DNA from: Microscillaceae bacterium | GTDB lineage: Bacteria; Bacteroidota; Bacteroidia; Cytophagales; Microscillaceae | NCBI GenBank assembly: GCA_011390205.1 | Contig: JAABSX010000016.1 | Location: 1-64,000, forward strand | DNA length: 64,000 nucleotides | Reading direction: 5' to 3' | In this document: one piece after another, positions 1-60,495 of the stretch | Layout: every line of letters begins with the position of its first letter | How positions within the stretch are numbered: the stretch's first letter is position 1 | Notes under the pieces: model-generated | What the model was told of the DNA's origin: nothing | Databases searched by the model: none | The model's input: the letters and a program-made list of their open reading frames with translations, nothing else | Translations under genes and position numbers: made by a program

Positions 1-730
1 CCAAGTGCATGCCGAGGTCTGAGCCATCTTCACTGGTGCGTTGCTCTACATATTCTAAGAGTTGATTTTTTTGGAAAATAGCCGTATCATCCGCAAAAAA
101 CAAGAATAAAATCCTGACCAAAAAGAGTTCTAATACTTCTCCTTTATAGCCACTCTCAAAGAGTTGATCGTGGATAGTTGCCATCAGTTCGGCGGCTTCT
201 ATGTTGAGTGGGTCATCAGGGCGAGTTTCTTTTTTGACTGCCCCAATCATAAATCCAAACAGGCTAATATGCTGATAAAACTCATCTAAGGCAAAGGCAT
301 GCACTTTTCTTTCCAGCACATCATAGAGTCTAAATTGCTGAAAATTAGACACCAATATAAATTTGGGGAGTTCATAATCTTTGAGTCCTTCAAAATATCC
401 TATTGCTTGGTCAAAGGCTTTTTCTAGGTTTTCACCCTTAGATTTATGCTCTACAATCAATACTCCTTTCCAGAATAGGTCAATTCTGCCTGTAGCCCCC
501 CTTCCCCCAAAGGGGGAGTTTTGTTCCCCTCCTTTGGAGGGATTAGGGGAAAGCTTTTTTACGTGGTGTTCAAAACTTGCTACCCTTCTACGGTCTATTC
601 CAAAGACATAAAAAAAGTCATTCCAGAAAGTTTGTGCTTCTGCATTTTCTTTTTCTGCCGTTTGGTATTCACGGCTAAAAGTAATGGCCCTTGATTTGAT
701 TTCGTTCCAAGAGATGCGGTTTTGAATCAT
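1..730 (-). CDS. MmeI-like type IIL restriction-modification enzyme, N-terminal part (runs off the window)
   Basis: Open from the ATG at 730 to the left edge (243 codons, no stop). Enzymes of this family join a nuclease, an N6-adenine methyltransferase and a specificity domain in one chain; only the N-terminal nuclease region and the start of the helical spacer are visible. Seen: RRRVASFEHHVKKL near residue 47, then GRIDLFWKG (81-89), IVEHKSKG (92-99) and ELPKFILVSNFQQFRLYD. This fits the MmeI N-terminal PD-(D/E)xK fold, with D84 and E94-x-K96 as the likely catalytic residues. Residues of about 61-79 are encoded by a C/G-rich repeat (positions 494-550) that has no counterpart in the family pattern as I remember it. 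Methyltransferase motifs lie outside the window, so activity cannot be judged. Confidence 0.85.
   Translation of the reverse strand, partial: MIQNRISWNEIKSRAITFSREYQTAEKENAEAQTFWNDFFYVFGIDRRRVASFEHHVKKLSPNPSKGGEQNSPFGGRGATGRIDLFWKGVLIVEHKSKGENLEKAFDQAIGYFEGLKDYELPKFILVSNFQQFRLYDVLERKVHAFALDEFYQHISLFGFMIGAVKKETRPDDPLNIEAAELMATIHDQLFESGYKGEVLELFLVRILFLFFADDTAIFQKNQLLEYVEQRTSEDGSDLGMHL
494..550 (-). repeat. C/G-rich inverted-repeat element inside the MmeI-like gene
   Basis: On the minus strand the segment reads as a left half (CCCCTAATCCCTCCAAAGG then AGGGGAAC) joined directly to a right half (AACTCCCCCTTTGGGGG then AAGGGGGGCT). The halves match the two ends of the elements at 56525-56660, 58578-58797 and 60290-60495, without their internal sequence. 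Its length is close to 57 bp, a multiple of three, and the reading frame stays open across it. Confidence 0.8.
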
Positions 731-24268: not shown

Positions 24269-24297
24269 GCCCCCTTTGGGAGTCAGGGGGCTTCTAA
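24269..24297 (-). repeat. Half copy of the C/G-rich element after lepA
   Basis: On the minus strand AGAAGCCCCCTGACTCCC then AAAGGGGGCA, eight bases after the lepA stop. It corresponds to the left end of the elements at 56-60 kb. The self-complementary GCCCCCT...AGGGGGC part could also fold as a terminator-like hairpin, followed by TTTTT. Confidence 0.7.
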
Positions 24298-56524: not shown

Positions 56525-56660
56525 TTCAGCCCCCCAACCCCCAAAGGGAGCGTTTTTTTAGTTTGTAAATTTATTTTCAGTCTTAGTATCCTGTTTTCAG
56601 CCCCCAAAGGTAGAGTTCATTATTCGCCTTGTTCCCCCTTCGGGGTTTAGGGGGCTTCTA
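56525..56660 (-). repeat. C/G-rich inverted-repeat element between AmpG-like and GH3 genes
   Basis: On the minus strand, left end AGAAGCCCCCTAAACCCCG... with AAGGGGGAA, an internal stretch that includes a second short CTTTGGGGGCTGAAAA copy, and right end CCCTTTGGGGGTTGGGGGGCT followed by GAAAAT and the GH3 ATG. It fills almost the whole spacer. Confidence 0.75.
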
Positions 56661-57939: not shown

Positions 57940-57988
57940 TCCAATTTTATATTACAGTATCTGTTTCATATTTCCGCAGCATGCTTCT

Positions 57989-58021
57989 GTCATGCCGTAG
58001 GCATCTGCTGTATGGCGTAGC
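57989..58021 (+). repeat. Inverted copy of the element core sequence
   Basis: GTCATGCCGTAGGCATCTG followed by CTGTATGGCGTAGC reads on the plus strand. The same sequence occurs on the minus strand inside the elements at 58578-58797 and 60290-60495. No C/G-rich ends are present around this copy. Contains the hairpin TGCC-GTA-GGCA. Confidence 0.7.
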
Positions 58022-58572: not shown

Positions 58573-58577
58573 GTTAA

Positions 58578-58797
58578 GTCCTCCAGCCCCCAAAGGGGGA
58601 GTTTTTTAAGTTTAATAATTGTTTTTATGTTTGGTCATTGGGCATTGTGTTGCTTACTAAACTCTCAGTCCTTCACCCCCTCAGCCCTTCAATCATTCAG
58701 TCTAGGCTACGCCATACCACAGATGCCTACGGCATGACAAAAGAAGTTCCCCCTTCGGGGGCTAGGGGGCTATCCCTTCGGGGGTTAGGGGGCTGCA
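58578..58797 (-). repeat. C/G-rich inverted-repeat element between GHL10 and GNAT genes
   Basis: On the minus strand: two tandem left ends (GCAGCCCCCTAACCCCCG and AGCCCCCTAGCCCCCG, each with AAGGG), then the core with GTCATGCCGTAGGCATCTG, then a homologous tail, and the right end ACTCCCCCTTTGGGGGCTGG just before the GNAT start. The first left end overlaps the stop codon of the hydrolase gene (58785-58787). Homologous over most of its length to the element at 60290-60495. Confidence 0.8.
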
Positions 58798-60289: not shown

Positions 60290-60495
60290 AAGCCCCCAAC
60301 CCCCAAAGGGGGAGTTTTATTTAGTTAATTGATACTTTCAAATTTATTGTTTAATTGGTTATTGGTCATTGGGTTACTTTCTAAACTCTCGGCTCTTCAA
60401 TCTAGGCTACGCTGTATAACAGATGCCTACGGCATGACAAAAGAAGTTCCCCTTTCGGGGGCTAGGGGGCTTTCCTTCGGGGGTTAGGGGGCTTT
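60290..60495 (-). repeat. C/G-rich inverted-repeat element between methyltransferase and GHL10 genes
   Basis: On the minus strand: tandem left ends (AAAGCCCCCTAACCCCCG, AAAGCCCCCTAGCCCCCG), a core with GTCATGCCGTAGGCATCTG, a tail sharing AATGACCAA-type words with the element at 58578, and the right end AACTCCCCCTTTGGGGGTTG before GGGGCTTGAAATATG, the start of the next gene. The left end includes the stop codon of the methyltransferase gene (60484-60486). Confidence 0.8.

Follow-up and report, generated by a model that had tools for sequence, protein, structure and literature searches.

The MmeI-like gene at the contig start and its insert

The window, i.e., the whole stretch of 64,000 nucleotides analysed here, represents contig C32 from base 1 of a draft genome of 4.51 Mb in 124 contigs, labelled G000. 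Its features, with the evidence for them where applicable in parentheses, are:

2..730, minus strand: MmeI-like type IIL restriction-modification enzyme, N-terminal 243 codons, cut by the contig start (Pfam, PDB)
443..451, minus strand: E94-H95-K96, equivalent of MmeI E80-M81-K82 (E94 and K96 invariant in 92/92 rows)
479..481, minus strand: D84, equivalent of MmeI D70 (invariant in 92/92 rows)
491..550, minus strand: codons 61-80 (SPNPSKGGEQNSPFGGRGAT), a 20-residue stretch as against 4 residues in nearly all homologues (alignment)
494..555, no strand: coding palindromic element, two inverted ends with a spacer of ~9 nt (sequence, direct repeat family D3, genome pattern search, hairpin fold)
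494..517, plus strand: conserved element end, 2 mismatches against the consensus (genome pattern search)
527..555, minus strand: diverged (degenerate) inverted end, whose outer AAGCTT doubles as host codons K59-L60 (sequence, fold, alignment)
24269..24292, minus strand: single intergenic end, 3 mismatches (pattern search)
56528..56656, no strand: intergenic element, 129 bp, inverted ends (direct repeats, clusters)
58577..58794, no strand: 218-bp intergenic element with inverted ends, a further right end and a long spacer, borders overlapping two ORF ends
60290..60493, no strand: intergenic element, ~204 bp, whose right part shares 84% identity with the corresponding part of the copy at 58.6 kb

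The ORF at 2-730 (243 amino acids) stays open across the palindrome and is cut by the contig start. It matches the Pfam models MmeI_N (1.8e-39) and MmeI_hel (3.2e-10), its sole PDB match is MmeI (5hr4, E 5e-67), and it combines the D-x9-E-x-K nuclease core with the MmeI N-terminal domain, both features of MmeI-like type IIL enzymes. The catalytic residues of MmeI are reported to be D70, E80 and K82, mutation of which abolishes cleavage, and its endonuclease domain is described as disordered in the crystal (PMC4833311).

The first-pass annotation had described positions 494-550 as a pair of inverted repeat ends placed back to back within this gene, and the sequence bears this out: the plus strand at 494-517 reads AGCCCCCCTTCCCCCAAAGGGGGA, two mismatches away from the family end consensus AGCCCCC[C/T]A[A/G]CCCCC[A/G]AAGGGGGA. 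The palindrome itself extends from 494 to 555 and measures 62 bp rather than the 57 bp first proposed; because the AAGCTT at its left border also encodes the conserved K-L of the host, the element is likely to be somewhat smaller, at 57-60 bp. The in-frame placement stands, with the inserted residues running from about 61 to 80 instead of 61 to 79. The net insertion amounts to 16 residues (20 in the window protein as against 4 in relatives), which suggests either that a few host codons were replaced or that the borders have become blurred. Folded as RNA, the 62 nt of the minus strand give a single long hairpin (-35.7 kcal/mol, z -2.2), a weaker fold than that of a copy in a type IIG gene (-57.8 kcal/mol, z -8.1), from which we infer that the window copy is the older-looking of the two. 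No Rfam family matched the window at gathering scores, and the element carries no DUF559 nuclease, nor has it room for one.

The loop was compared in a 92-row alignment of the window protein, 80 named homologues and 11 further matches, including a paralogue from the same genome; at least two contigs were entered twice (L011/L194, L012/L209), the matches L020-L024 and L026-L029 were left out, and two of the rows (L143, L162) have stops. Along the stretch from L60 to G81 the window protein has 20 residues, 90 of the 92 rows have 4 and one has 3, the paralogue likewise lacking the insert. The segment is absent from all 91 other rows, so that the possibility of its being ancestral to the family failed as a refutation, and the insertion is lineage-specific. 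Further, G81, D84, E94 and K96 are invariant throughout the alignment; the insert does end five residues before D84 of the D84/E94/K96 core, as had been pointed out earlier, and the residues and their spacing are intact. MmeI itself, which lies outside the alignment, has 9 residues at this position, indicating that the loop is naturally variable. Such variation could be taken to mean that the segment is merely a native loop of an MmeI-like enzyme with a chance resemblance to the repeat. This is scarcely credible, however, given that the segment is unique among the 92 rows and that its 24-mer stands 2 mismatches from a family with zero control matches. As judged from alignment and pattern search, the segment in the window protein is a copy of the repeat, and the same family lies in frame in other genes.

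A dispersed repeat family and its copies within genes

The 24-base end is found at 54 places in the 4.51 Mb genome at up to 3 mismatches, its G variant at 45, and the combined end consensus at 50 with up to 2 mismatches, the reversed-pattern control giving 0 each time. Merging the places from these pattern searches yields 62 half-ends in 43 clusters; this, with the empty control, meets the criterion of a dispersed palindromic repeat family for coding palindromic elements. The earlier link of the insert to the intergenic family at 56-60 kb holds insofar as the family is the same, but that family is genome-wide and reaches beyond the cluster. ORFs of at least 150 amino acids cover ~86% of the window, which points to a depletion of copies in genes, gene-breaking insertions not being in the count. 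A second repeat (GCCGTAGGCATCTG... type), with inverted and direct copies at 57984-58021, 58706-58743 and 60406-60443, is located close to, or inside, the long spacers of the intergenic elements. Several repeat copies lie no more than ~500 bases from contig ends (G000 C31, C32, C60, C84, C103), and the repeats may hence break the assembly.

Across 15 genomes of the family, half-ends number 388 in G007, 103 in G002, 60 in G004, 50 in G000 and 1 in G009, with zero in the other ten. A phylum survey recovered matches in 16 of 395 genomes, all from one class and with no more than 24 each apart from G000, while a sister end, with TAAAT as its linker, is present in seven of 149 genomes of the class, G000 included. 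Exact end matches are also present in 27 viral-contig stretches; a plasmid search returned no match.

By an ORF rule, 10 of the 43 clusters in G000 are internal to genes, and two of these were discounted. The copy in AlaRS (C61), considered as an essential-gene insertion, adds only 2 residues relative to 16 relatives (G012 left out), indicating that some in-ORF matches are not insertions. In the other (C41), the true gene is HypD, with the copy near its C-terminal end, and as the tail may vary it was not counted. Copies at the N-terminal ends of ORFs (PurK, HypF, a glycosyltransferase and a glycosidase) were also left uncounted because the gene start may be misplaced. The eight remaining clusters fall in seven genes, encoding the MmeI-like enzyme, a type IIG enzyme, an HTTM protein (two clusters), a type ISP enzyme, an RND pump, an FGE-like protein and a TnpB-like protein; the type ISP gene has two repeat copies. 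Absence of the insert from homologues could be established for the MmeI-like protein (92 rows), the type IIG enzyme (15 rows) and HTTM site 1 (17 rows). HTTM site 2 was not called as an insertion, its loop being too variable, and the type ISP, RND, FGE-like and TnpB-like proteins rest on domain matches only, PDB alignments of the RND and FGE proteins having left the insert unresolved. The genome-wide search for copies inside other genes, proposed as a check in the first-pass annotation, found several in frame, e.g., in the type IIG and HTTM genes, as part of a dispersed family; neither of the two refuting conditions named in that annotation was fulfilled.

The 15 loci inspected from other genomes of the family include copies within ORFs in G002 (L089, L092, L095/L098) and copies near ORF ends in G004 (L094) and G007 (L093/L096). 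In the viral contigs and sister-family loci taken together, 13 of the 76 ends fall inside an ORF. One viral-contig ORF of 333 codons (L291, 3-1001) contains three in-frame ends. In two genomes of one genus (L307, L308), a single protein has QPPKSP[K/E]GGL, an in-frame insert of the sister family, at the same site. In the alaS gene of G016 (L228), sister palindromes lie in frame, along with SKSEIRN repeated in tandem and the REP-like insert KSERSGDPDL; that of G002 (L227) has an 83-residue in-frame insertion near residue 400 without a visible repeat peptide.

At the type IIG site, 5 of the 15 rows (G000, G020, G033, G004, G005) carry repeat-derived inserts, the other ten having short residues and no repeat. 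These inserts differ in length and involve at least two end subfamilies, which argues for more than one event. The G005 enzyme has further repeat inserts elsewhere, one of them surrounded by a nuclease-like segment, with the aligner splitting it over two adjacent positions. Additionally, an MmeI homologue from a Ferruginibacter MAG (L142) has a different palindrome, encoding TLSLGEGLGVR, at the loop occupied in the window protein, the aligner placing it just before the counted L60-G81 stretch. This 33-nt insert agrees at 31 of 33 bases with the right end of a DUF559-containing insert in the LeuRS of G033, and no second copy of it was detected in its own 6.7 kb locus. Peptides of the LSFGEGLGVR type are common in Bacteroidota proteins; a literature search for such strings gave nothing relevant, the sole match being unrelated by title. 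The alignments demonstrate that one and the same loop of a given protein can hold repeat-derived inserts in separate genomes.

The recurrence of restriction-modification genes as hosts, together with an insert end five residues before the first catalytic residue, might indicate that the insertion is adaptive or disabling, i.e., that it modulates or abolishes nuclease activity and leaves methylation in place. Against this, housekeeping genes are hosts as well (see below), the catalytic residues are intact and the length of the loop varies naturally, and we hold such a role to be very unlikely. The weakened nuclease envisaged in the first-pass annotation is without support, yet not excluded: catalytic residues and spacing are intact, and cleavage would be an inference from these alone. 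Most likely, the insert is expected to have little effect and the host enzyme still works, its activity being inferred and the remainder of the gene lying off the contig.

Nuclease-bearing inserts in relatives and the spread of short copies

The nuclease-like segment in the G005 type IIG enzyme led to a search with PF04480 (DUF559) of 24 chosen genomes, with and without the repeat, in which matches of at least 85 bits were regarded as strong. Matches were recovered in 15 of the 24 genomes at 23 places, 15 of them strong; the eight weaker ones were set aside, seven being usable for flank scoring. Twelve of the strong matches are in-frame parts of longer host ORFs and three are free-standing. 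The hosts are LeuRS (six), MetH (two), type IIG enzymes (two), RecG (one) and one N6-methylase-like protein, identified by Pfam in 7 of the 12 cases, by match to the type IIG query in G001, and by reading the sequence in the others; in terms of Pfam, DUF559 falls within or between host domains. Thermus LeuRS, for example, has 6 residues where G004 has 167. LeuRS site 1 lies where the editing domain starts; it is occupied by DUF559 in five genomes and by a short palindrome of 111 nt in G033. Site 2 holds DUF559 in G033 and, in G004, a short repeat-type insert rich in Pro/Gly.

The borders of these inserts resemble the short copies. The MetH insert of G408 is in frame, starts with AGCCCCCCAACCCCCAAAGGGGGA, a family end also recovered by the pattern search (C1:305348-305371), and finishes with GGGGGGCT; in the LeuRS insert of G004, the inverted ends measure 38 bp and pair with a single mismatch. 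An inverted flank pair scoring at least 16 accompanies 10 of the 15 strong DUF559 matches, none of the seven usable weak ones and 5 of the 26 usable loci of RAYTs (REP-associated tyrosine transposases). Four RAYT loci were left out of that count, one being too short and three (L110, L123, L126) having a match that does not start at 1501. As RAYTs have palindromes of their own, their loci are not a clean control, and random windows in the same loci were used: of the 24 windows at insert boundaries (the right one of G001 being a contig end), 14 contain a strict hairpin, as against 46 of 1937 control windows. Such hairpins are found on at least one side in 9 of the 12 inserts and on both sides in 5. 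Several end subfamilies are represented among the DUF559 inserts, and the window family is matched by some only. In relatives, then, by comparison of aligned loci, similar inverted ends flank in-frame DUF559 within essential proteins, and long and short inserts alternate at two LeuRS loops.

DUF559 is described as a PD-(D/E)XK, Vsr-like domain (PMC12907096), a DUF559 gene has been placed in the EDxHD homing family (PMC9403480), and fused DUF559 has been reported in alphaproteobacteria (PMC1829167). The aligned copies retain the DF, E-x-DG and H positions. Their dN/dS ratios are 0.229 (G014/G006), 0.208 (G408/G357) and 0.143 (G004/G014), rough figures with dS above 1 in each case; the near-identical G014/G013 pair gives 0.107 on few changes, and two more pairs have saturated dS. 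From the low ratios and kept positions we infer that the DUF559 inserts are probably translated and functional. The copy number of the repeat does not track the nuclease: no DUF559 match was found in G000 (50 half-ends) or G007 (388) and only a weak one in G002 (103), while G005, G006, G013 and G014 have DUF559 and lack the exact 24-mer.

Each end looks like a REP-type hairpin with its tag and the pair like a BIME, and Y1_Tnp genes are present in 10 of 12 genomes searched, G000 included. A repeat of REP/BIME type moved by a RAYT would account for this, the DUF559 link being incidental, and another palindrome (GAGCGAAGCG type) indeed flanks the RAYT of G000, with like sequence in frame in the alaS of G016, which implies that such repeats can enter genes. 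However, none of 30 RAYT loci has the present ends at up to 5 mismatches within as much as ~1.5 kb per side, and G003 and G012 have 6 and 7 Y1_Tnp matches but no ends, leaving a RAYT an unlikely mover of this family. The genome's own RAYT gene (L107, G000:C47) has the flanking palindrome CAAGTCTGAGCGAAGCGGGGACTTG, which differs from the window ends.

Spread could also have proceeded with no dedicated enzyme, through replication slippage, template switching or gene conversion between hairpins, the in-gene copies being survivors. The nested and tandem ends (C103, C50, C58), the replacement of a few host codons without clean duplication, and the existence of two repeat-rich genomes without a DUF559 match would all fit. 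The 388 ends in one relative as against none in ten of the 15 family genomes, however, suggest bursts, and ends of this kind also occur on forms that carry a nuclease; on balance we doubt that slippage and its like suffice.

We consider it likely that the window contains a lineage-specific, in-frame palindromic insertion before an MmeI-like nuclease core, representing a MITE-like, nuclease-less form of a DUF559 element in a host that probably still works, a reading drawn from sequence comparison alone. The long form has DUF559 between two ends, in frame at loops; the short form, to which the window copy belongs, consists of end joined to end (~57-92 bp in G000, 111 in G033) and would be a nuclease-less derivative of the DUF559 element type. 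By inference, the Vsr/EDxHD-like nuclease once cut empty sites, and repair would have copied the element in, leading to its spread. Selection may then have purged out-of-frame hits and those in structured parts, the survivors being inert loop peptides. The main difficulty of this DUF559-based model lies in G000 and G007, which lack DUF559: the nuclease may have been lost, may have acted in bursts only, or may not be the mover. The DUF559 forms of other genomes share ends of this kind and would be candidates for a full-length partner, none having been found in G000. The data show no transposition event, no target duplication, no activity and no close empty allele, though distant empty sites in the MmeI and type IIG alignments point to replaced codons.

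A wider generalization can be put forward only tentatively, as a possibility that falls somewhat short of being probable: Bacteroidota may harbour unspliced in-frame homing elements, with palindromic ends and DUF559, that insert at fixed loops of essential genes (LeuRS, MetH, RecG), remain in the protein as a translated domain, and shed nuclease-less palindromes like that of the window across the coding loops of genomes. If true, protein loops in a large bacterial phylum would be landing sites for mobile DNA that survives by its translatability, and, as a type of element, the nuclease-bearing form would stand between Rickettsia palindromic elements (RPEs) and inteins. It would also account for Pro/Gly-rich insertions in Bacteroidota enzymes. 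Work on Rickettsia is said to have left the origin of in-frame palindromes open; that origin would become testable through a candidate enzyme, target loops and long/short pairs (LeuRS sites 1 and 2). No Bacteroidota coding palindrome or in-frame DUF559 element appeared among the literature matches listed, subscription papers being mostly outside their scope.

Comparison with known systems

The host shares MmeI_N, MmeI_hel and the D/E/K spacing with MmeI (type IIL), the loop having 20 residues here as against 9 in MmeI. The long forms resemble inteins in being in-frame, nuclease-containing inserts in conserved genes. That they are inteins was rejected, as neither a splicing domain nor a C-terminal His-Asn is apparent at the borders from the lengths and inspection of the residues: where both borders are available (11 inserts), the length is 143-205 residues, and what remains beside the ~105 residues of the nuclease is too short for a splicing domain. 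With the EDxHD/Vsr-like (DUF559) homing endonucleases, the long forms share DUF559 in inserts at fixed sites of conserved genes; here, by contrast, the nuclease lies in the reading frame of the host protein and the insert has palindromic ends, with no recognised intron or intein.

REP/BIME repeats and their RAYTs provide a parallel in the paired, inverted small hairpins, the high copy number and the frequent position beside gene ends. A published REP table includes Bacteroidota, namely two Flavobacterium species and Thermoflavifilum (PMC12306157), and the intergenic side of the present family may thus be known, as far as the available text of that source allows. REPs are stated there to be seldom found in coding regions (PMC12306157), whereas the present family has in-gene copies, and its ends are at none of the RAYT loci examined. 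Another source deals with CGTC repeats in Bacteroidetes and with RPEs as in-frame repeats, and its available portion names no coding repeats in Bacteroidetes (PMC3733652).

The comparison with Rickettsia palindromic elements made at the outset fits the literature (PMC3767692, PMC2229807, PMC10969869). Like the present inserts, the RPEs and Wolbachia palindromic elements are in-frame palindromes in protein genes, with recurrence at the same locus (PMC3767692, PMC2229807, PMC10969869). RPEs are reported to be ~100-150 bp long and to lie in solvent-exposed regions of proteins of intracellular alphaproteobacteria, and an RPE-bearing guanylate kinase to be active with altered substrate affinity (same sources). 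The present family differs in its C5-AAA-G5 hairpin ends, in its in-gene short forms of ~57-92 bp and in its occurrence in Bacteroidota. Further, the accessible text of those sources makes no mention of a nuclease-bearing RPE, whereas here DUF559 forms are present in relatives.
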